A stretch of DNA of 46,437 bases from a bacterium (GTDB taxonomy: Bacteria; Omnitrophota; Gorgyraeia; Zapsychrales; Zapsychraceae), in the NCBI GenBank assembly GCA_030429765.1, contig JAUIER010000003.1, positions 208,402 to 254,838 on the forward strand, read 5' to 3'. Both the position numbers and the translations under genes were made by a program. Below are positions 12,838 through 33,787 of this stretch, piece after piece (position 1 is the stretch's first letter; every line of letters starts with the position of its first letter). Below the pieces are notes generated by a model, which did not search any database, was not told the DNA's origin, and saw only the letters and a program-made list of their open reading frames with translations.

Positions 12838-14416
<1,579 letters not shown>

Positions 14417-14507
14417 TCTATTCTTTTAAGATAGAAATGAAAATACTTTCCATTCACGAGTGGAAAGCAAAATCATGAGTAGTTTGAAGTCTCAAGCGCT
14501 TCAAAAT

Positions 14508-14520
14508 ACTTGGCTTTTTT
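14508..14520 (+). repeat. 3' arm of the 16S precursor processing stem
   Basis: ACTTGGCTTTTTT is complementary over 13 bases to 12824-12836 upstream of the 16S. Confidence 0.75.
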
Positions 14521-14538
14521 TATAAATTGTTCAGTGGT

Positions 14539-14581
14539 CAACAATCTGGTGCTTACCGTTAGGGTGGTATCCAGATTGTTG
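14539..14581 (+). other. hairpin in the 16S-tRNA spacer
   Basis: CAACAATCTGG (14539-14549) pairs perfectly with CCAGATTGTTG (14571-14581) around a 21-base loop, just ahead of tRNA-Ile. Probably a spacer processing structure. Confidence 0.5.
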
Positions 14582-14600
14582 TTCATTGGCCTCCGACTTT

Positions 14601-14677
14601 GGGCCCGTAGCTCAGTTGGTTAGAGCACCGTGCTGATAACGCGGGGGTCAGCGGTTCGAATCCTCTCGGGCCCACCA
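14601..14677 (+). tRNA. tRNA-Ile (anticodon GAT)
   Basis: Cloverleaf with acceptor GGGCCCG/CGGGCCC, D-arm with AGCTCAGTTGG, anticodon loop CTGATAA, T-arm GGTTCGAATCC. The discriminator A and CCA (14675-14677) are encoded. Standard position in the 16S-23S spacer. Confidence 0.96.
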
Positions 14678-14750
14678 TTTTATCGGGGAATAGAAGCTTT
14701 GAGTACAACGCAACAATGCTATTCTTCAATATATTGCTTTTAGCTATTAT

Positions 14751-14824
14751 GGGGCCATAGCTCAGTTTGGGAGAGCGCCTGATTTGCATTCAGGAGGTCA
14801 GGAGTTCGATCCTCCTTGGCTCCA
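14751..14824 (+). tRNA. tRNA-Ala (anticodon TGC)
   Basis: Cloverleaf with acceptor GGGGCCA/TGGCTCC, anticodon loop TTTGCAT, T-arm GAGTTCGATCCTC. The discriminator A is followed by TTT, so CCA is not encoded, unlike the adjacent tRNA-Ile; a CCA-adding enzyme is needed. Confidence 0.95.
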
Positions 14825-14923
14825 TTTTCTTTTTCAGGCAAGAGATAATAAAATTACTATAAATTTCACAGGCAGTACACCAATCCAGCCACTTCTGCGG
14901 AAGTGGTTCGCTATTGTCTGTAA

Positions 14924-14935
14924 GTTCTTTGACAT
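14924..14935 (+). promoter_or_regulatory. second boxA-like site, upstream of 23S
   Basis: GTTCTTTGACAT mirrors the leader boxA-like site and overlaps the start of the 23S processing arm. Confidence 0.45.
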
Positions 14936-14947
14936 ATATGTGAGATA
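14932..14947 (+). repeat. 5' arm of the 23S precursor processing stem
   Basis: ACATATATGTGAGATA is the exact reverse complement of 18125-18140, enclosing the 23S gene. Confidence 0.75.
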
Positions 14948-15088
14948 GAGAGTAAAGGTTAACATTAATGTTAACTATCGACATTATATTATTCCGTCAG
15001 TAACGCAAGTTACTGATCAGAATGGTCTAAGTAGTTCTGTAATTTTTTGCTGTAAGTTATGCGCTTACAGATTTTTTTTAAAAATATT

Positions 15089-18047
<2,959 letters not shown>

Positions 18048-18060
18048 TAAATATACGTTT

Positions 18061-18096
18061 CATTGTCTGTCATCAGTTCGCTGGTGACAGACAATG
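18061..18096 (+). other. 16-bp hairpin with UUCG tetraloop between 23S and 5S
   Basis: The arms 18061-18076 and 18081-18096 pair along their full length with one G-U, closing on TTCG. It lies inside the 23S processing stem and is followed by GTACGTTTTTT. A processing or partial termination element is likely. Confidence 0.6.
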
Positions 18097-18124
18097 GTAC
18101 GTTTTTTGAAGATTTCTTATTCTT

Positions 18125-18140
18125 TATCTCACATATATGT
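18125..18140 (+). repeat. 3' arm of the 23S precursor processing stem
   Basis: TATCTCACATATATGT pairs over 16 bases with 14932-14947. Confidence 0.75.
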
Positions 18141-18178
18141 TAAACATTTAGTGCTTATTTAATGATAAGCATCATTGA

Positions 18179-18298
18179 TTTCCGGTGGTTATACTGTAGG
18201 GGCAACACCCGTTCCCATTCCGAATACGGAAGTTAAGTCCTATAAGGTCGATGGTACTGCAGTTGCAAAGCTGTGGGAGAGTAGAAAGTCACCGGTTT
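18179..18298 (+). rRNA. rrf: 5S ribosomal RNA
   Basis: The ends pair (CCGGTGG near 18183, CACCGG near 18291). The middle has CCCGTTCCCATTCCGAA and GAAGTTAAG, the conserved 5S core. About 120 bases; ends approximate. Confidence 0.93.
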
Positions 18299-18534: not shown

Positions 18535-21500
18535 ATGAATAATGTCACCACATTTATCAAACAGGCTGTAGTCTATGTTACAGCACTTACCTTTATACTA
18601 ACGCCACAAGGGGCGATGGCTCTCCCACAGGGGGAAAACGTGGTTTATGGAAATGCCACGTTTGATCGATCGATATCGGATCAGTTAACCGTCAATCAAT
18701 CCACAGATAAACTTATAACGAATTTTGACAGCTTTTCCATAGCTCAACCGGAAAGCGTTCATTTCATTCAAAATTCGGTTTCTAGTGTAGCCCTAAACAG
18801 GGTTGTCGGGGGAGACCCGTCAGCCATTATGGGAACGCTGACAGCCACGGGAAAGATATTTGTCATCAATCCCAACGGAGTGGTGTTTGGTCATAATTCC
18901 CATGTCGACGTTGGAGGTTTGGTTGCGTCTACTCTAGATATCAGCAATGAGGACTTCCTGGCTGAAAATTATAACTTTGCCGGGCAGGGAGCCGCCGTTG
19001 TCAATTACGGGGATATCAATGCGCCCGGCGGATATGTCGCATTGCTGGGTTCACATGTCGCGAATCATGGTGCAGTAGTTGCCGAGATGGGAAGTGTTGT
19101 CCTGGCCTCAGGCGAGGCTGTAACGATGACACTGGATCCGCAAGGTCTCATCAATGTGGTGGTTGATCAGCCGACTTCTCAAGATCCAACGCGACATTAC
19201 GCGGCTGTTGAAAATAGTGGTGTTATTCAAGCCAATGGAGGGCGAGTTGTTTTAACGGCCCAAACGCTGAATGATGTTTTTGATTTTGCTGTAAATAATA
19301 CAGGCATTATAGAAGCCAAAAACTTCGAAGAGCTGAACGGGCGGATAGTTCTATCGGCCAATCATGATGTTAGTGTGGGTGGAGAGCTGCATGGGGGGCA
19401 GGTCGAGATTGTCTCGGAGTCCGGAGATGTACGCCATCGGGTAAACAGTAAGGTCGAGACATACGGTTCGAACATGATAGGTCGAGCCGGGAATGATTAC
19501 ATCCTAGACAATGGTACCGTGATCAATGCCGGTAATGGTGTGGTAGATATATATGCCGAGGAAAACTTGTATATGGGTTCATCAGAGGATCAGTACAAGT
19601 CCACTTATGATTGGGATTACGTCTCGGACACGCGCGCATACGAGTTTAGAGAATTCGGATACTATGTCGTCGATGACAATAACAATTTGGTATACGTACC
19701 GCTTGTTGTGGGCGAAGATATTGGTAAGGATGGGCTGGCCCCTATCGCCGGATCAGGCGTGGTTTATGAAGATCTTTCAGGACTAGGCCTTTACACAGTA
19801 TTTCATCGCGGAGGCAGCGGTTATATACATCCGTCGGACACATCCAATACGGACAGTTGGACATTCCATCAAGATGCTGAGTTTAATGCCGATGGTATTG
19901 AACACGTGCAAATCGATGGCATTCGTTATGGATGGGAGGATATCTTTGGTGGCGGCGACCTGGATTTTGATGATGCCGTCATTGATTTTGCATTTGATGT
20001 GGTCAAGGCTTCGCCGGGTGCGTTTATTAACTCCGATAGCAATGTTTTTCTAACTGCCCAAAATGGTTTTATTAAGCAAGTTGCGGGAGATGTGTGTGCC
20101 AAGAATCTTATGTTTTCCGCGAATCACGGAATCACTGGAACGGGCATCAATGGAGGATTTGAAGCCACAGCTCAGAAGGTATCGGCGGAGAATCGGGGCA
20201 GTGGGGATATTCGTATCGATAACAAGATCGATACCATGATTACGGATTTAAGCAATGAAGTCGGTCTCAACCCAGGAGTTGTCGGGACAGATGGAATCAA
20301 TAATCAAGTAGTAGGTGGGACGGTTGATGTCGTGAGTCGTAAAGATCTGACCATCAAGACCCAAGTTAAGGCCAAAGGCGACATTATCCTAAAGGCTTAT
20401 GAGAATATGTTTCAGAAAGAAAACGGAAAAGTTGTCATTGATCAGGATCCAAACGAGGGATTATTACCGGTTAATGTATACAGCACATCCCATCAAACCG
20501 AGCAGTGGAGTAATGACAACACCGTCGATATGGAATGGACTTTACCGGAATACACCACGGATAAATTCGATATCACGCTGGAAGCCGGCGAACAGTATAT
20601 CATGGAACCCGGAGCCAGTGTGGAATCTAATGGCGGAGACGTCAACGTCACGGCCAATGATGACATCTTATTGACATTGATTGACGCGCACAATGGTGAT
20701 GTGGCCATCATCTCACAGAACGGATCCATTATTGACAACGATCTGGACGTGGCACCGGCGGATTACGATGTCATCGGTCATCATATTCAACTCCAAGCCG
20801 ATAACGGAAGCGTGGGCGAAAATGGTAATGAGCAGGAAATCGACCTAGGCGCTCCGCACTTTGAGTTTTCGTATGTCGCTGATACCTTGAACAATACGAT
20901 TCCTGACAACATCACGGATACCTATACAGTCTCTTTGAATGAGCAAGGTGACTGGATTTACCAAACGACATTTCTGGCGGATGTTGACAATGCCAATTGG
21001 GGATTTCATTTGTTAACGATGGATGAGTCCAATAATGCGTTGTTCGCGGCGCAGCATGTCCGTCCGTTCTTCATTGATACGACAGCGCCGATTATCACAG
21101 GTGATTATCTGGCCGCGAATGAATTCGGCTGGCACAATCAGGATGTGACAGTGAGTTTCAGCGCGACGGATAATTTGTCCGGGTTCAACCCTGACGGCAG
21201 TTTAACCGCGGGGTTAAATTCAGAAACGATTACGCAAGAAGGTATCGGTCTAGTTGTCACTTCAGACGGAATCTTTGACCGGGCGGGAAATGCCGCGCAA
21301 ATTATCGATGTGGTGCTCAACATTGATCAAACGGCCCCGGTGATCACGGACTTTAATCTGCCGGATCCCAATGAATTTGGTTGGTACAATCAAGATGTCA
21401 CCGTCGATTTTAGTGCCACGGACAATCTCTCAGGCTTCAATCCGGATGGCGCGCTCAGCACGAATTTACTCTCTCAAACAAGTACAGGCGAGGGGGTAGG

Positions 21501-22860
21501 GCTGATCATCACATCGGAAGGGATTACGGATCGTGCCGGTAACGTGGCCAACCGTGTGGAGGTGGCGGTTAATGTCGATAAGACGGCTCCGGTCATTTCG
21601 GCTGATTATTTGGCAGCTAATGAGTTCGGTTGGCACAATCAAGATGTTACCGTCGATTTTAGCGCCACAGACAATCTGTCTGGATTCAATCCCGACGGCG
21701 CGTTGTCTGCCGCCTTAAATTCCGAGACAATTACGGCCGAGGGGCTGGGATTGATCGTCACGTCTGACGGAATTTTCGATCGCGCCGGGAATGCGGCTGT
21801 TCCTCTGGACGTGACACTCAATATCGATAAAACAGCGCCGGTCATTTCTGCTGATTATTTGGCGGCCAATGAATTCGGTTGGCACAATCAAGATGTCACT
21901 GTTGACTTCAGTGCGACCGACAATTTATCCGGATTTAATCCCGATGGCGCCTTGTCAACGGCATTGAATTCTGAGACGATCACTGCCGAAGGTTTAGGGT
22001 TAATTGTGACGTCGGACGGCGTCTTTGACCGCGCGGGTAATGCGGCGGAACTGATTGACGTCGTACTGAATATAGATAAAACCGCACCGGTTGTAAGTGC
22101 AGATTACCTGGCACCCAATGAGTTTGGCTGGCACAATCAAGATGTCACGGTTGACTTTAGTGCGACGGATAATCTATCTGGTTTTAATCCAGACGGAGCA
22201 CTATCAACAAACTTAAATTCTGAAACAATCACCAGCGAAGCTGCCGGTATTATTGTGACGTCAGATGGCATATTTGACCGAGCCGGCAATGCGGCGGTAC
22301 CTGTTGATGTGGTTGTAAACTTAGATAAAACGGCTCCAGTTATCACGGCTGGAGATCCAACTGGCCCAACAAACTCGAATGGCGAGTTCACTGGTGACGT
22401 GACAGTGCCATTCAGCGCAACAGACAATTTATCCGGGTTTGCCCCTGATGGAAATACCATAACCGATCTTTCCTCAGAAACGGGTCAACCCGGATTTATT
22501 GTCACCTCCGACGGTATCTTTGATCTGGCCGGAAACTTTGCGCCGGGAATTCCGGTAGGACCATTTGCAGGGCCAACCGTGACGCCGCCCACAACTCCAC
22601 CGACAGTGGTTGGGGTGCCGCTCACATTTGAATATCTTCCCAAAGAATACACTGTCTACTATGAGGTTCTCTCACCCAGTCAGTTTCTGAGCTTTGAACC
22701 GACTCTCAAAGTCGGGTTCTTCGGATATCATCCGATTACAGAGACGAATATGGTCGCCTTGGAAGAGGAGGGACTGGATCTATCCATCGAGGTCTACGAA
22801 TTCATCGAAGATCAGATGGACCGGAAAAAACGGGCGGTACCGTATTTTGCCAACTGGTAG
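18535..22860 (+). CDS. TpsA exoprotein of a two-partner secretion system with Ig-like repeats
   Basis: A 1441-residue exported protein. A signal peptide covers about residues 1-29, ending near GAMALP. Residues about 30-260 are the filamentous-haemagglutinin-type secretion (TPS) domain, with LNRVVGGDPSAIMG and the hallmark NPNGVVFG. A beta-helix-like region follows. Around residues 455-485 GWEDIFGGGDLDFDDAV resembles the Asp-rich core of DUF4114 domains, which may bind calcium. Residues about 850-1346 are six Ig-like repeats of about 83 residues (21082-22575). A Pro/Thr linker and a unique charged tail finish the protein. A strong AAGGAGG ribosome site precedes the ATG. The TpsB transporter gene follows after 170 bases. 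Likely a surface adhesin or surface-layer fibre; its ligand is unknown. Confidence 0.88.
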   Translation: MNNVTTFIKQAVVYVTALTFILTPQGAMALPQGENVVYGNATFDRSISDQLTVNQSTDKLITNFDSFSIAQPESVHFIQNSVSSVALNRVVGGDPSAIMGTLTATGKIFVINPNGVVFGHNSHVDVGGLVASTLDISNEDFLAENYNFAGQGAAVVNYGDINAPGGYVALLGSHVANHGAVVAEMGSVVLASGEAVTMTLDPQGLINVVVDQPTSQDPTRHYAAVENSGVIQANGGRVVLTAQTLNDVFDFAVNNTGIIEAKNFEELNGRIVLSANHDVSVGGELHGGQVEIVSESGDVRHRVNSKVETYGSNMIGRAGNDYILDNGTVINAGNGVVDIYAEENLYMGSSEDQYKSTYDWDYVSDTRAYEFREFGYYVVDDNNNLVYVPLVVGEDIGKDGLAPIAGSGVVYEDLSGLGLYTVFHRGGSGYIHPSDTSNTDSWTFHQDAEFNADGIEHVQIDGIRYGWEDIFGGGDLDFDDAVIDFAFDVVKASPGAFINSDSNVFLTAQNGFIKQVAGDVCAKNLMFSANHGITGTGINGGFEATAQKVSAENRGSGDIRIDNKIDTMITDLSNEVGLNPGVVGTDGINNQVVGGTVDVVSRKDLTIKTQVKAKGDIILKAYENMFQKENGKVVIDQDPNEGLLPVNVYSTSHQTEQWSNDNTVDMEWTLPEYTTDKFDITLEAGEQYIMEPGASVESNGGDVNVTANDDILLTLIDAHNGDVAIISQNGSIIDNDLDVAPADYDVIGHHIQLQADNGSVGENGNEQEIDLGAPHFEFSYVADTLNNTIPDNITDTYTVSLNEQGDWIYQTTFLADVDNANWGFHLLTMDESNNALFAAQHVRPFFIDTTAPIITGDYLAANEFGWHNQDVTVSFSATDNLSGFNPDGSLTAGLNSETITQEGIGLVVTSDGIFDRAGNAAQIIDVVLNIDQTAPVITDFNLPDPNEFGWYNQDVTVDFSATDNLSGFNPDGALSTNLLSQTSTGEGVGLIITSEGITDRAGNVANRVEVAVNVDKTAPVISADYLAANEFGWHNQDVTVDFSATDNLSGFNPDGALSAALNSETITAEGLGLIVTSDGIFDRAGNAAVPLDVTLNIDKTAPVISADYLAANEFGWHNQDVTVDFSATDNLSGFNPDGALSTALNSETITAEGLGLIVTSDGVFDRAGNAAELIDVVLNIDKTAPVVSADYLAPNEFGWHNQDVTVDFSATDNLSGFNPDGALSTNLNSETITSEAAGIIVTSDGIFDRAGNAAVPVDVVVNLDKTAPVITAGDPTGPTNSNGEFTGDVTVPFSATDNLSGFAPDGNTITDLSSETGQPGFIVTSDGIFDLAGNFAPGIPVGPFAGPTVTPPTTPPTVVGVPLTFEYLPKEYTVYYEVLSPSQFLSFEPTLKVGFFGYHPITETNMVALEEEGLDLSIEVYEFIEDQMDRKKRAVPYFANW
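21082..22575 (+). repeat. six tandem Ig-like repeats within the TpsA gene
   Basis: Units start at 21082, 21331, 21583, 21832, 22081 and 22330; most are 249 bases (83 residues), the second is 252. Each begins TAPVI/TAPVV and carries WHNQDVTV, FSATDNLSGFNPDG and FDRAGNAA. The sixth is divergent. Units 3 and 4 are nearly identical as protein but differ at many third codon positions. Confidence 0.92.
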
Positions 22861-22868
22861 TTCTTTCG

Positions 22869-22907
22869 AGAGACTTAAGTGTTTATATAATAGGCACTTA
22901 AGTCTCT
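22869..22907 (+). terminator. 13-bp hairpin after tpsA
   Basis: AGAGACTTAAGTG (22869-22881) pairs with CACTTAAGTCTCT (22895-22907). A T-run is lacking, so termination would be weak; it may allow partial read-through into tpsB or protect the tpsA message. Confidence 0.5.
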
Positions 22908-22941
22908 GACTAATTTGATAAAAATTATATAAGTCATTTAT

Positions 22942-22970
22942 TTGCATATACTTACAAAATGTTTTACACT
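22942..22970 (+). promoter_or_regulatory. possible tpsB promoter
   Basis: TTGCAT (22942-22947), 17-base spacer, TACACT (22965-22970), about 60 bases before the tpsB start. The match is moderate and rests on spacing. Confidence 0.35.
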
Positions 22971-23030
22971 TGCAGAGATGTTGAGGTGTTTTTAAGATCG
23001 CTTTGAACAGGAGCGGGCAGGAGATTTGAG

Positions 23031-24746
23031 ATGAAAAAGTTTATTTACATATTACTTGCGTTAGGTGTGAGCATGGCTTCAGGATCGGGTATGGCTCTGG
23101 CCCAACCCGCCCCGGCCGACACAGCTGGCGGATTATTGCGTCAAGATGTGGATCAGTTTCGTATAGAAGAGTTTGAACGACGCATCAAGGCTGAGCGTGA
23201 AAAGCGTCAGCAGCAAGAGGAAGAGGTCATCGAAGTCAAGGGAACGGGACCATCGGTCATGATCAGCCAGATCGATATCGAGGGTGTCAATATTATCCCC
23301 ATGAAAGACCTTCATCCGATCCTGATGGAGTATCAGAATCGCGAACTCACCATGGCAGACATTCAGGGGTTGGCCCGAAAGATTACCCAAGTTTATCGCG
23401 AGCGTGGCTTTGTGACATCACGAGCGTACATCCCACCGCAGAATATGGACAACGGCCGTCTGGTCATCAATGTGCTTGAAGGTCGGCTGGGTGATGTGGA
23501 GATTCAAGGTAACAAACATTTCAAGACATCTCTTCTGAAGAAGAAGCTGGATATGCAGGGACAGAATCAGTATTTTGACTATTCCCAGCTGCAGCGCTCA
23601 CTGGCGTATATCAATGAACATCCGGACAGGACAGCGCGTGCGGTGTTACTGCCGGGGGATCAGCCCAAGACGACCGATGTTGTCATCGAGGTTCAAGATC
23701 AGCTGCCGATACATGCAGGTTTTGAATTTGACAATCATGTCTCCCGTTTTATCCATCGTGACCGATTCGGGGTCTTTGTTGAGCATAATAACCTAACGGG
23801 AAATGATGATCGCCTGGAAATCAAAGGCTATCTTACCGACGGGAAACTCTTGAAGTCCGGACAGCTTCGTTATCTGTATCCGTTTTCACCGACCTTTGAA
23901 GCTGGATTTTACGCATTGTACAGCGAATCAGAATTGGGTCGTGAATTCAAATCGGTGCAGGCCGAGGGTGAGGCTCAATTGTATGGAATTTTCGCCACCA
24001 AAGAATTAGTCAAGAACGACACGATTGAGGTTCGATTGAACGCCGGTTTTGACTACAAGGACATTGAGAACTTCCTGCTGGGAAGTGTCAATTCGCATGA
24101 TGAACTACGGGTTTTGAAGGCCGGAATGGATTTCGATTTTGTCGATCGATTCGGCCGATCAATTCTTACATCGGAGATTCACGCCGGAATCCCTGATTTT
24201 CTGGGAGGGTCCGAGGCCAAGGACGCCATGGCGTCACGAATGGGCGCGGGTGGTAAATTTCAGAAGGGAGTATTCAATTTCTTTCGGTTACAGCCAATGC
24301 CTTACAATACTCACATCCTGTGGAAGAATTCGGGGCAGTTCACCAATCATACACTGGTCGCCTCTGAGCAATTTCAAATTGGCGGGGCCAAAAGCGTTCG
24401 CGGTTATGCGCCGGCTGAATTCTCCGGGGATCGCGGATTTTATAGCTCCGTGGAATGGTCGTTCCCGTTATGGGGGTTGTCGAAGAATGTTAAGGTTCCA
24501 TTTCGTCAAGAACGTCTGTATGACGCGGTGCGAATGGTTGCCTTCTATGATATCGGATTTATCGATAACCGTAATCCAGCTGCCGGCGAGCAGTCTAATG
24601 AAACACTTCAGGCGTATGGTTTCGGTGTGCGTCTGAATCTGCTGGATGATCTAGCGTTGCGCATTGAAGTTGGCTTTCCGATCGATGGAAAGTCCGCTGA
24701 TGGTGATCATCATCACACCTGGTTTGAGCTCAAGTATCGATATTAA
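23031..24746 (+). CDS. TpsB outer-membrane transporter (ShlB/FhaC/HecB family)
   Basis: A 571-residue Omp85-superfamily pore that moves its TpsA partner across the outer membrane. The signal peptide ends near residue 24 (ALAQ). A charged helix rich in Glu, Arg and Gln follows (about residues 40-70), as in FhaC helix H1. Two POTRA domains come next, with ISQIDIEGVNIIPM and GDVEIQGNKHFKTS, and ERGFVTSRAYIPPQ between them. The C-terminal half is a 16-strand barrel: RGYAPAEFSGDRGFYSS holds the conserved region of strand 12 and loop 6 (VRGY motif), and the protein ends on aromatic WFELKYRY. It lies directly downstream of tpsA, as expected. A strong terminator follows. Confidence 0.93.
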   Translation: MKKFIYILLALGVSMASGSGMALAQPAPADTAGGLLRQDVDQFRIEEFERRIKAEREKRQQQEEEVIEVKGTGPSVMISQIDIEGVNIIPMKDLHPILMEYQNRELTMADIQGLARKITQVYRERGFVTSRAYIPPQNMDNGRLVINVLEGRLGDVEIQGNKHFKTSLLKKKLDMQGQNQYFDYSQLQRSLAYINEHPDRTARAVLLPGDQPKTTDVVIEVQDQLPIHAGFEFDNHVSRFIHRDRFGVFVEHNNLTGNDDRLEIKGYLTDGKLLKSGQLRYLYPFSPTFEAGFYALYSESELGREFKSVQAEGEAQLYGIFATKELVKNDTIEVRLNAGFDYKDIENFLLGSVNSHDELRVLKAGMDFDFVDRFGRSILTSEIHAGIPDFLGGSEAKDAMASRMGAGGKFQKGVFNFFRLQPMPYNTHILWKNSGQFTNHTLVASEQFQIGGAKSVRGYAPAEFSGDRGFYSSVEWSFPLWGLSKNVKVPFRQERLYDAVRMVAFYDIGFIDNRNPAAGEQSNETLQAYGFGVRLNLLDDLALRIEVGFPIDGKSADGDHHHTWFELKYRY

Positions 24747-28333: not shown

Positions 28334-28777
28334 ATGACTCAAACCACTCCAAATACACAAGAAACAAACCGGATTGCCGGCGAAATCGCGGTTCTGATGC
28401 CGCTGATCGCCCGTAAAGTGCTTTTCGATTTTTTTCAATCCGTGGATATCTCACAGTCACAGCTGCTAACCGTAGTGGCGGTTCACGATATGGGGGAATG
28501 TCGCCTGTCGGATTTGAGTCAGAAGATGGGGATTTCCAATCCCACCGCCTCCGGCCTTGTTGATCGTCTGGTCCAGAATGGATACATGAAACGCGAGGCG
28601 GATCCCGACGACCGAAGGGCGGTTGTTCTTTCGGTGACTGATAAAGGCACAAAGCTGACGCAGAAATTGAGAGAATCGACTCAGCAAAAGTGGAACAACA
28701 TCCTTACGGAGATTCCGCAGGCCGATCAGCGCGATTTTATTCGGATTTTAAAAGTTATTAAGGAGAAGGTCTCATGA
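28334..28777 (+). CDS. MarR-family transcriptional regulator
   Basis: A 147-residue winged-helix regulator. The recognition region is LSDLSQKMGISNPTASGLVD (about residues 56-75). The wing carries the family mark DPDDRRAVVLSVTDKG, and the flanking helices form the dimer interface. MarR proteins are usually repressors released by small phenolic or lipophilic ligands. It is the first gene of an operon with a TolC-type channel and an RND pump and overlaps the next gene by 4 bases (ATGA). The near-consensus promoter and the small palindromes downstream of it suggest self-repression with derepression of the efflux genes by their substrates. Confidence 0.92.
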   Translation: MTQTTPNTQETNRIAGEIAVLMPLIARKVLFDFFQSVDISQSQLLTVVAVHDMGECRLSDLSQKMGISNPTASGLVDRLVQNGYMKREADPDDRRAVVLSVTDKGTKLTQKLRESTQQKWNNILTEIPQADQRDFIRILKVIKEKVS

Positions 28778-30240
28778 AATATTTAACATTACCATTCGGG
28801 ATCATCGGCCTGATGTTTCTGTGTTCTACAAATTTTGTCCATGCCGAATCGCCGATGGTTCGTTTGTCGGTGGATGACGTGACCCGGATCGCGCTTGACA
28901 ACAATTTTGACATCCAATTGGCTAAGTATGATGCCTGGATCAAGGCCACGGATGGAATGAAGAGTGAATCTATTTTTGACACGATATTTAATGCTGAAGT
29001 TTCATATCGGGAGGATGAGAGCGCGCGGGCTACCACTTTCTCCGGGACGCGCACCGTGGAGAACGACTACAACATTGGATTCGCGAAAAAACTCCCGTCC
29101 GGAACGTCGCTAAACCTAGCCATGACCAACGCGCGGGATGTTACCAACTCAACTTTTTCAACATCTCCGGTCACACGTGAATCAACGCTGGAGTTATCAG
29201 TGGTGCAGGCGATGGGTAAGAATTTTCTGGGAATGCAGGATCGCGGCACAATCAAGCTTACGGAAATTGATATTGAGAATTCGGAATTTACATCACTTGA
29301 TAAACTTGAGGCCACTGTGGCCGAAGTCCAGCAGGCCTACTGGGATCTGGTTCTTCAGGCGGAGCGGGTCGAGATTGAGCGTGATATGGTTGAACAGGCC
29401 AAGAAACTCTATGATCTGCACCAAAAACAATTGAAGGACGGGCTCGTCGAGATTCCGGACGCGATTGCTTCAGAAGCCAACTATCAGCGCACGCTGAATC
29501 GATTAACACTGGCGCAAAATACCTACCAACGAAAATTAAACGTCGTCAAGCTATTGCTGAACCGGACTGACCTTGACGTGGTGATCGAACCCACGGACAA
29601 GCTTCAACTGGCCGGTTCACAAACAGCCACGATGGAAAGCCTGGATTTGGCCTTAAAGAATCGTCGGGACTTCAAGCAGGCGATGAACCTCATCAAGGCC
29701 CGGGATATCCAGTTGTCCATGAAAAAAAATAATCTGTGGCCGGAAATCAATCTGACCGCATCACTGGCCCGAAACGGTTTGGGTGACAGCTTCAATGATG
29801 CCGCCACGAAGATCAGTGAAGAAGATAATCCAAATTTCTTTGCCGGCTTAACGTTTGAAATCCCGTTGGAAAACCGCAGCGCCCGGGCGGAGTTGAAGGC
29901 CGCCGAGCTTGAGAAGGCCAGGATCTTACTCAATACCAAGTACCTCGAACGGCGCATCACCATAGAGATTGTGGACCAGGTCCGTGACTGCAACATCTTC
30001 CGGGAAGTAGCGCAGAATGAAATCGCGATCTCGGATTTACAGATTCAAAAACTTGAGGAAGAACAAAAACGATTCAACCTTGGTCGGTCAAATACCGATA
30101 TCATTATTCGTTTTCAGGAGGACGTGATTCAAGCCCGCTTATCCGCAGCCGAGGCCAAATATCGTTATCAGACGGCCTTAATTGATCTCAAACGAAAAGA
30201 ATCCACCTTGCTGAGTCGTTATTGGAACGACGAACTCTGA
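28774..30240 (+). CDS. TolC-family outer-membrane efflux protein
   Basis: A 488-residue protein with a signal peptide ending near residue 24 (FVHA). It has the internal duplication of OEP proteins: the first half opens with LSVDDVTRIALDNNFDIQLA, the second with SLDLALKNRRDFKQAMNLI. Long heptad helices (EVQQAYWDLVLQAERVEIER, LKAAELEKARILL) make the periplasmic tunnel. Trimers form a barrel in the outer membrane and a channel reaching the pump. It overlaps the MarR gene by 4 bases and stands 55 bases before the RND gene. The sequence 30241-30295 is a short leader with no separate gene. Confidence 0.92.
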   Translation: MKYLTLPFGIIGLMFLCSTNFVHAESPMVRLSVDDVTRIALDNNFDIQLAKYDAWIKATDGMKSESIFDTIFNAEVSYREDESARATTFSGTRTVENDYNIGFAKKLPSGTSLNLAMTNARDVTNSTFSTSPVTRESTLELSVVQAMGKNFLGMQDRGTIKLTEIDIENSEFTSLDKLEATVAEVQQAYWDLVLQAERVEIERDMVEQAKKLYDLHQKQLKDGLVEIPDAIASEANYQRTLNRLTLAQNTYQRKLNVVKLLLNRTDLDVVIEPTDKLQLAGSQTATMESLDLALKNRRDFKQAMNLIKARDIQLSMKKNNLWPEINLTASLARNGLGDSFNDAATKISEEDNPNFFAGLTFEIPLENRSARAELKAAELEKARILLNTKYLERRITIEIVDQVRDCNIFREVAQNEIAISDLQIQKLEEEQKRFNLGRSNTDIIIRFQEDVIQARLSAAEAKYRYQTALIDLKRKESTLLSRYWNDEL

Positions 30241-30295
30241 TCCACTTACCCACTAGCTGAACCTCAATTTATCAACACGTCATTAGGGGTGTCGT

Positions 30296-33200
30296 ATGAA
30301 GATTGCGGAACTGTCCGTTAAAAATTCCTTACTTGTTAACCTGATTTCCATATTCATTATTCTGATTGGAACCGTTTCGATGCTGCAGATGCAGCGCGAG
30401 GCGTTCCCACAGGTCGACTACGACATTGTCACCGTCACCACGGTTTGGCCGGGCGCTCCGACAGAAGACGTGGAGAAGTTTGTCACGATTCCATTGGAAG
30501 AGGAGTTGCAATCCGTCAGCGGTCTGCAGGAAGTGGATTCGCGCACGGACGAAGGTTTGTCCTATATCGGAGTTACGATCGAACCGAGTGTGGTGGACAA
30601 GCGCAAAGTGGTCAATGATATCCAGCGGGCGGTGGACCGCGTCAGGGATTTGCCGGAAGAAGCTGAAGATCCGGAGGTGTTCGAGTTAGCGACCAGCGAG
30701 TTTCCGGTCATAGAGGTGTCGATCAGCGGTCAGGTCAGTGAGAAAGTCCGTCGGGAATATGCCGAGACACTCAAGGATGAGCTGCTGGATATTGAAGGCG
30801 TCTCCCAGGTTCGGGAGATCGGATGGCGGGACTACGAGTTTTGGGTTGAGGTTGATCCGAAAAAGCTCAAAGACTATCATGTCTCGATGCAGGAGATTAT
30901 GGCCGCGCTGCAGACCCGTAATGTCACCGTTCCCGGGGGGCAATTAACGACGTCCGACAAGGAGTTTAATGTTCGAACCACGGGCGAGTTTAAAACAGCG
31001 GATGAGATTGCCGAAGTGATCATCCGGGCCAATGATTCAGGCAACTGGCTGAAGGTCAAAGATGTCGCGACGGTCAAAGAATCCTTTGAAGACGCCACCA
31101 CCATTGCCAAGGTCAACGGGAATCTGGCCAGCGCCATGGTGGTTGTCAAGACAGAGCAGTCTGACGCGATCAAGGTGGTGGATGAAGTCCAGGCGGTTAT
31201 CACGGAATTCAAGAAGCAGTTGCCCGATAACATGGACATCAAGACGGCGAATGATTTTTCGTTTTACGTCAAACGGCGGCTGGGTGTGTTGACGAACAAC
31301 GGAATTATCGGATTTATCCTGGTCCTATTTATTCTCTTCCTATTTTTGGACCCGGTCCCCGCGTTCATGACGGCTTTCGGGATTCCGATCGCGCTATGTA
31401 CCTCATTTTTAGTGATGAATCTCCTGGGTATCACGATCAACCTGGTGTCGATGCTCGGGATTATTTTGGTGCTGGGGATGCTCGTCGATGACGGGATTAT
31501 TGTCGCCGAGAATGTCTATCGGCATGTGGAAGAAGGGCTGCCGCCCCGACAGGCCGCGATCAAAGGGACCAATGAGGTCGCCTTACCGGTAACGATAACG
31601 ATTCTGACGACATTCGCGGCCTTTGGTCCGCTGATGTTTATGGATGACGTCCTTGGTAAGTTTATCCGTGAGATACCCAAAGTTGTATTGATCACTTTGT
31701 CGGCCTCGTTGTTTGAGGCGTTTGTGATTTTGCCGTCCCATTTAAGTGACGCCGTAGGTCTATTCAAAAAGAAACCCAAGCCTAAGTCTGAGAGCGGCTG
31801 GTATGCCGGGTTGATTCGGATTTATCGCACAAGTCTTGATCTGGCCTTGCGGATGCGGTATTTGGTGCTGTTTGGCATGATCGGTGTATTCGCGTTTTCC
31901 ATTTTCATTGCCACGACACAAATGAAGTTTATATTGTTCGCCGGTGATGGGATCGAGTATTTTTGGGTCAGGGCCGAAGCACAGAAGGGAACTCCGCTGG
32001 AAAAAATGAATGAATTGCTGGCGCCGGTGGAGCAGACCATCACGGAGTTGCCGGAAGATGAGCTGGAAAGTTATCGGACCTACATCGGATCGATTGAGTC
32101 TGAGGCCGGTTTTGATCCCAATGCCAAGCGCGGGACTCATTTGGCCCAGATCACCGTCTTTTTGACGCCGTCACAGCAGCGCGAACGTCGTCCAAGGGAA
32201 ATCATGGAAGAGATCCGGACCAAGATGGAAAAGATCGAGGGGTTTGAAAAACTTACCACCTTGCTCCCCAAGGAAGGTCCGCCGACGGGGGCGGATGTTG
32301 AGGTGGGAATTAAGGGAGAAGAGTATTCAGTGATGGAGAGATTGTCTGTTCCGTTCATAGCATATTTGGAAGGAACAGTGCGGCCAGATTCCTTTGTAGA
32401 CATGTTCACCAAGGCAGAGAAAGATGGATTTCTAGACAAAATCTTAAAAAGACATGCAGGGGAGCAAGCTATATCTGAAAGTAGTGCTGAGCTCGAATCT
32501 GAACAGCTATATCAAAAGCTTCGTTCCATGAGCTTACTCGATGAGACTTCAAAGCTTGTTAGTGATGTAGATAATTACTTTTTGAAAATCATGGATTGGC
32601 CTAAGGCTTTGATTTTTAAAGAGGCTCGTCGCAAGATTAGCAGTCATTTTAGCTTTCGAAAGGATTTTTCTGAATTGTCTAGGAACGAGTTTCGTCAACT
32701 GGTTGCTATACTCAAAATACATAGAAATCATGCAAAGGGAGTATCTGATATCACCACCAGCTATGATTTTGGCAAGAAACAGCTCAAGGTGGTGGTCGAT
32801 GAGGAAAAGGCCAAGAAGTATTTTCTGACGATTGGTCAGATTGCCACGACGGTGCGCAATGTATTTAAAGGCGGGGTCGCGACGACGATTAAGCCGGAAA
32901 AGGCCGAAGAGGAGATCCGTGTGGTGGTCCGGTTTCCGGAGGCGGAGCGCAATCGGTTGAATATTTTTGAGGAGATACTGGTTCCCAATTCCAAAGGGAA
33001 TTTAATCAAGCTTAGTTCTGTGGCTGCGATCGAAGAGAGTGAAGGCGTATATTTGATCAATCACGTCGACGGGAAACGGGTGCTGTATGTGACAGCCCAG
33101 GTGGATAACAAAAACGCGACATCGCTGGAGGTGAATAGGGAGCTTCAAAAGACGTTTCCGGATGGGGCTCAAGGCGAATTTGGATATACGGTTCAGTATG

Positions 33201-33787
33201 GCGGGGAATTTGAGGATCAGCAAAAGTCCGCGACCAACCTTATGCGCAGCTATCTGTTTGCCTTATTCTTGATCTTTATCCTATTGGTCGCGATGTTCCG
33301 TTCGCTGATTCAGCCGTTCATTGTGATGATCGCCATTCCATTCGGGATCATCGGGGTTATTCTGGCATTTTGGGTGCATGATATGATTCTCCCAACGGGT
33401 CGACCTTTGAATTTCTTCGCATTGATGGGGTTGGTCGGGCTGACCGGGATTGTGGTCAATGATTCGGTGGTCCTGATGGATTTCATCAACCGGCATCGGC
33501 GTGAAGGGAGTGATCGGCGGGAATCATTGCTTGAGGCCGGGGTGGTCCGCTTGCGTCCTGTCATTATGACATCGATCACAACCATTGGCGGTCTGGTCTC
33601 CGTGGCCTACGGGATCGGCGGGGGTGATCCGTTCCTTAAACCGATGGCGCTGGCCATTGTCTGGGGATTGACGTTTTCAACCGCGCTGACGCTTGTAGGC
33701 ATTCCGTGTCTGTATGCCATCGTGGATGATCTGACCGAGCAGTTTTTCCATCACTCGCTGGTTCGAAAGACAGATGAGGATGCCTAG
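30296..33787 (+). CDS. RND-superfamily efflux pump with a large in-frame insertion
   Basis: A 1163-residue inner-membrane proton antiporter, longer than the usual 1020-1050. The AcrB plan is intact: TM1, a first periplasmic domain, TM2-6 with GMLVDDGIIVAEN in TM4 carrying the proton-relay Asp pair, TM7, a second periplasmic domain, and TM8-12 with GLVGLTGIVVNDSVVLMDF. The extra length is one segment, about residues 692-813, between IAYL and GVSDITTSYDFGK in the second periplasmic loop. It is visibly richer in A and T than the rest. The operon has MarR and TolC partners but no membrane-fusion (HlyD/AcrA) gene. The pump is probably of the hydrophobic and amphiphilic efflux class; substrates are unknown. 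Confidence 0.93.
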   Translation: MKIAELSVKNSLLVNLISIFIILIGTVSMLQMQREAFPQVDYDIVTVTTVWPGAPTEDVEKFVTIPLEEELQSVSGLQEVDSRTDEGLSYIGVTIEPSVVDKRKVVNDIQRAVDRVRDLPEEAEDPEVFELATSEFPVIEVSISGQVSEKVRREYAETLKDELLDIEGVSQVREIGWRDYEFWVEVDPKKLKDYHVSMQEIMAALQTRNVTVPGGQLTTSDKEFNVRTTGEFKTADEIAEVIIRANDSGNWLKVKDVATVKESFEDATTIAKVNGNLASAMVVVKTEQSDAIKVVDEVQAVITEFKKQLPDNMDIKTANDFSFYVKRRLGVLTNNGIIGFILVLFILFLFLDPVPAFMTAFGIPIALCTSFLVMNLLGITINLVSMLGIILVLGMLVDDGIIVAENVYRHVEEGLPPRQAAIKGTNEVALPVTITILTTFAAFGPLMFMDDVLGKFIREIPKVVLITLSASLFEAFVILPSHLSDAVGLFKKKPKPKSESGWYAGLIRIYRTSLDLALRMRYLVLFGMIGVFAFSIFIATTQMKFILFAGDGIEYFWVRAEAQKGTPLEKMNELLAPVEQTITELPEDELESYRTYIGSIESEAGFDPNAKRGTHLAQITVFLTPSQQRERRPREIMEEIRTKMEKIEGFEKLTTLLPKEGPPTGADVEVGIKGEEYSVMERLSVPFIAYLEGTVRPDSFVDMFTKAEKDGFLDKILKRHAGEQAISESSAELESEQLYQKLRSMSLLDETSKLVSDVDNYFLKIMDWPKALIFKEARRKISSHFSFRKDFSELSRNEFRQLVAILKIHRNHAKGVSDITTSYDFGKKQLKVVVDEEKAKKYFLTIGQIATTVRNVFKGGVATTIKPEKAEEEIRVVVRFPEAERNRLNIFEEILVPNSKGNLIKLSSVAAIEESEGVYLINHVDGKRVLYVTAQVDNKNATSLEVNRELQKTFPDGAQGEFGYTVQYGGEFEDQQKSATNLMRSYLFALFLIFILLVAMFRSLIQPFIVMIAIPFGIIGVILAFWVHDMILPTGRPLNFFALMGLVGLTGIVVNDSVVLMDFINRHRREGSDRRESLLEAGVVRLRPVIMTSITTIGGLVSVAYGIGGGDPFLKPMALAIVWGLTFSTALTLVGIPCLYAIVDDLTEQFFHHSLVRKTDEDA
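32369..32737 (+). other. AT-rich in-frame insertion inside the RND pump gene
   Basis: About 120 codons with no counterpart in the RND family. By hand count the rows 32401-32460, 32521-32580 and 32581-32640 hold 68 G+C in 180 bases (about 38%), against 64 in 120 (53%) for rows 32221-32280 and 32881-32940. Arg codon AGA, scarce in the flanking pump sequence, recurs in and just beside it. The coded segment is charged and helical (TKAEKDGFLDKILKRH, FKEARRKISSHFSFRKDF) with no membrane span. The frame stays open on both sides, so the host gene is not broken. Confidence 0.75.

Follow-up and report, generated by a model that had tools for sequence, protein, structure and literature searches.

A gene for an RND efflux transporter in the window, i.e., the whole stretch of 46,437 nucleotides analysed here (positions 208402-254838 of contig C1 from a 3.3-Mb genome in 34 contigs of an uncultured member of the Omnitrophota), carries an additional 119 codons of foreign composition, joined in frame at a site which is uninterrupted in the pump genes of 107 other Omnitrophota genomes. 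The explanation that we favor, with moderate confidence, is a recent and private acquisition of a foreign, non-mobile coding fragment, by which a still working pump would have obtained a tolerated, peripheral helical appendage. The features concerned are compiled in the following table.

Features of the pump operon and of the insertion site (window coordinates).
Feature	Position	Strand	Basis or remark
MarR-family regulator, first gene of pump operon	28334..28777	+	Pfam MarR 1.1e-15
TolC-type outer-membrane efflux protein (OEP)	28774..30240	+	Pfam OEP 4.1e-25
RND efflux transporter gene (AcrB/AcrD/AcrF family) with insertion	30296..33787	+	Pfam ACR_tran (PF00873), fold, orthologues
Left flank, coding for helix alpha1 of PC2 (residues 675-691)	32318..32368	+	homologous to relatives, AT-leaning, locally diverged
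Segment between L691 and G815, 123 codons, AT-rich, predicted all-helical (low confidence)	32369..32737	+	
Right border: first conserved codons GVSDI, PC2 strand beta2	32738..32752	+	

The transporter is encoded by a single open frame of 1163 aa and matches the ACR_tran profile at 3.1e-186, as is to be expected of an RND transporter. Likewise, its model matches the structures of AcrB, MtrD and CusA (Foldseek E about 1e-63, target-normalised TM about 0.86), and identity to its orthologues is between 50 and 76%. The transmembrane Asp pair (D398, D399) and Arg (R1087) of RND transporters are in place, and these proton-relay residues are invariant, together with N1055, throughout the 17 orthologues compared. 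When excluding the insert, similarity of the pump to 15 other orthologues amounts to 0.589, compared to 0.597 for its nearest relative. From these values and the invariant proton-relay residues, the evolution rate of the host gene is ordinary and no sign of decay is discernible. The bacterial HAE-1-like RND transporters AcrB, MtrD and AcrD share with the window pump the fold, the length outside the insert, the proton-relay positions and the MarR and TolC neighbours. In contrast to these systems, however, the latter has 119 additional residues in the alpha1-beta2 turn of PC2 and an operon lacking an adaptor gene, a trait that is common to its relatives, too. In the sister genome G001, the pump is absent at the corresponding place, where the contig ends nearby, and an orthologue is not found elsewhere in that genome either. 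Hence, within the genus the pump is probably dispensable. The orthologous pump of another genome, G018 (L007 136-470, minus strand), is extended at its C-terminus by about 110 residues that have no Pfam match; this extension was compared with the insert and found to be unrelated.

For locating the insertion, the protein was aligned with RND homologues, fixing the borders at L691 and G815. Between the conserved motifs IAYL (688-691) and GVSDI (815-819), the window protein has 123 residues, and exactly 4 residues are found at the same place in every orthologue compared from the family and the order. The net in-frame gain is thus 119 codons (357 nt, at about the position given for the segment in the table). 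Accordingly, the original prediction of an in-frame insertion of about 120 residues without family counterpart is borne out. Its location was also correctly assigned, while the proposed range of 32327-32750 is slightly wide, as the stretch up to 32368 encodes a conserved helix. At the DNA level, the exact left border is uncertain; the helix-coding part is AT-leaning as well. This adjoining helix is unusually diverged, ranking in about the lowest 3% of stretches, which is consistent with local accommodation. To establish the state of the site in relatives, the 136 residues that cover this region in the nearest orthologue were run against 384 genomes of the class. Matches were obtained in 108 of these genomes, 107 of them being uninterrupted and constant in length to about one residue. 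The sole interrupted match is the one from the window's own genome. Since the site is uninterrupted in the 107 other genomes, it was ancestrally empty and the segment is a gain in the lineage of the window.

Composition clearly sets the segment apart from its host gene. Over the three codon positions, its G+C content amounts to.49/.33/.35 (mean 39%), compared to.55/.35/.64 (mean 51%) for the remainder of the gene. The AT-richness reported initially is therefore real, whereas the drop of 15 G+C points then stated has to be specified as about 12 points for the segment as a whole, reaching about 16 at the deepest, and as about 30 at third positions. Against a background of 202 long ORFs from a 435-kb sample of the same genome, the insert represents the largest in-gene GC3 dip (-0.30), about five standard deviations away from the per-gene minima (mean -0.095, sd 0.039). 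The codon-usage log ratio toward AT-rich accessory genes is clearly positive only at residues from about 661 to 840. Codon use of the insert resembles that of AT-rich accessory genes of its own genome, for example, a methyltransferase cluster near C10:117-121 kb. As previously claimed, the host frame is open through the segment, and it is the only open one, while none of 2000 shuffled sequences is open. In line with this, a clear coding score is obtained solely in the host frame (0.158 versus 0.019 ± 0.045 for shuffles), and the encoded amino acid composition is ordinary for a protein, albeit free of cysteine. Most likely, the segment was formerly coding in its native frame and is not random DNA; considering its composition, a foreign origin is probable. 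Besides, the island at G000:C10:117368-120708 (in L062-L063), to which the methyltransferase cluster belongs, has a G+C content of only 32-38% in a genome of about 50% and carries a DNA cytosine methyltransferase-like gene plus neighbours, likely being a restriction-modification acquisition.

Homologues carrying the segment, which the original prediction had named as evidence against itself, were searched for mainly in the Omnitrophota phylum as well as in phages, plasmids and viral contigs, and were not found. A second copy is missing from the segment's own genome at both protein and DNA level, and credible homologues are absent from 384 genomes of the phylum, 384 genomes of the class and 81 genomes of the order. 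The six weak matches from the phylum search (E from 4.5e-4 to 8e-3 per genome) are only slightly more numerous than chance would give over 384 genomes and correspond to unrelated proteins or frames. Also phages, plasmids and viral contigs hold nothing that credibly resembles the segment, and PDB, Pfam, NCBIfam, PHROGs and PADLOC gave no credible match. A weak similarity to Pfam AAA_2 (PF07724; E 0.0019, positions 37-100 of 166) is not reproduced by shuffling, as none of 10 shuffled or reversed segments scored below 0.05. However, with 18.7 bits it stays under the curated cut-off of 27 and the segment is devoid of a Walker A motif; hence, this identity was not accepted.

Structurally, the insertion site lies in the porter subdomain PC2, at the turn that links helix alpha1 to strand beta2. 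The docking part follows later in the same loop, in agreement with the predicted porter-domain position ahead of the docking segment. The full-length model retains the PC2 elements on both sides, with strand 668-674 and helix 677-692 ahead of the insert and strands 816-821 and 825-834 behind it, and the insert is modelled as helices between these elements at a pLDDT of only about 38-54; when modelled alone, the segment reaches a value of 45. Porter helices are located at the outside of the ring (PMC8277102). As the turn in question ends a helix on this outer face, the added helical part would probably point or bulge outward. Taken together, we propose that about 119 codons of an AT-rich protein-coding gene, whose origin is probably horizontal, were joined into the pump gene by illegitimate recombination. 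In frame at both ends, this fragment would have landed at the PC2 turn and the pump would have kept working, with the outward helical segment most likely being a tolerated passenger and not a new functional part. Divergence of alpha1 beside the insert could, on the other hand, mean adaptation rather than mere tolerance.

Alternatively, an unrelated fragment might have been joined into the pump gene during assembly, the real gene being normal. Such a chimera would be in line with an insert that is present in one genome only and has no homologue elsewhere in the sets searched, and the sister genome G001 offers no pump for comparison. However, this would take two joins within one gene, with frame and strand preserved at each, on either side of a segment which is open and coding-like in exactly the frame of the host. 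Moreover, AT-leaning codon use spreads slightly into the conserved flanks, and the assembly of the 255-kb contig extends across a complete rRNA operon (16S, tRNA-Ile, tRNA-Ala, 23S and 5S; window 12838-18297), a feature not commonly seen in fragmented metagenome assemblies and suggestive of good quality. Because of the two in-frame joins required and of the contig spanning the rRNA operon, we regard an assembly artefact as unlikely. Following the rRNA operon, the window also encodes a two-partner secretion pair (18535-24746), consisting of a ShlB/FhaC-type transporter and a TPS-domain exoprotein of 1441 aa that contains a 249-nt (83-aa) tandem repeat.

Somewhat less probable is an acquired functional domain, i.e., a helical segment providing the pump with a new property such as docking of another periplasmic partner. 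The open coding frame and the ordinary protein composition would fit this explanation, as would the diverged adjoining helix alpha1 and the location in PC2, a subdomain lining the substrate cleft (PMC8277102). Nevertheless, the segment is conserved in no relative, its unameliorated composition is indicative of a recent event and no family match exceeds the cut-off. The operon context does not support such a role either. Genes are arranged in the order MarR-TolC-RND without a gene for an adaptor (membrane fusion protein) in the window at 28334-33787, and the same order, likewise adaptor-less, is present at L032 and L034, where the insert is missing. Furthermore, several HlyD_D23 adaptors are encoded elsewhere in the window genome. 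Hence, the suggestion that the added residues replace a missing partner had to be abandoned, since insert-free relatives are equally adaptor-less and adaptors are available from other loci. The adaptor-less MarR-TolC-RND operon is conserved across the family. Similarly doubtful is the specific variant in which a fresh helical PC2 domain, not yet adapted in composition, equips the adaptor-less RND pump with a new interaction or a substrate gate.

Rickettsia palindromic elements are in-frame mobile elements residing inside coding genes (PMC10969869), and the open, in-frame segment within a conserved host protein is reminiscent of them. A mobile element sparing host genes in this manner had also been envisaged in the original prediction, and is now very improbable. 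In contrast to the Rickettsia elements of about 150 bp, the window insert has 357 bp and is thus more than twice as long, affects no other genes, and shows neither repeated copies in the genome nor a palindromic structure. Searching for further copies retrieved only the segment itself, as protein and as DNA, and its inverted repeats are exclusively short or imperfect. RNA folding is no better than that of shuffled sequences (z 0.32). Direct repeats at the expected spacing of 357 nt do not exceed a match of 3 nt, so that a target duplication is missing. Terminal inverted repeats are absent as well, with a best inverted match across the borders of 7 nt; the combination of both features typical of an insertion sequence or MITE is consequently lacking. 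The segment is also unseen in hundreds of Omnitrophota genomes and in phages, plasmids and viral contigs. Finally, removal of the segment after expression, as an intein or a self-splicing intron, is hardly conceivable, although such an element would likewise interrupt a conserved gene in frame: the segment has no Cys and ends with HRNHAK before GVSDI, at variance with the known requirements applied by eye (N-terminal Cys/Ser, C-terminal His-Asn with Cys/Ser/Thr next), an intein family match was not obtained and Rfam gave no match, including introns, at E up to 1.

Thus, a foreign coding fragment acquired recently and tolerated by the pump is the explanation we retain, and it reveals neither a new mobile element nor a new pump mechanism. 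Its significance is rather to be seen against the very constant length of the RND porter turn, which varies by no more than about one residue in the 107 other Omnitrophota genomes. If the insertion is real and expressed, there is room for more than 100 foreign residues in a moving part of an efflux pump, and the window gene would represent an early stage of domain insertion with the foreign origin still visible in its composition.
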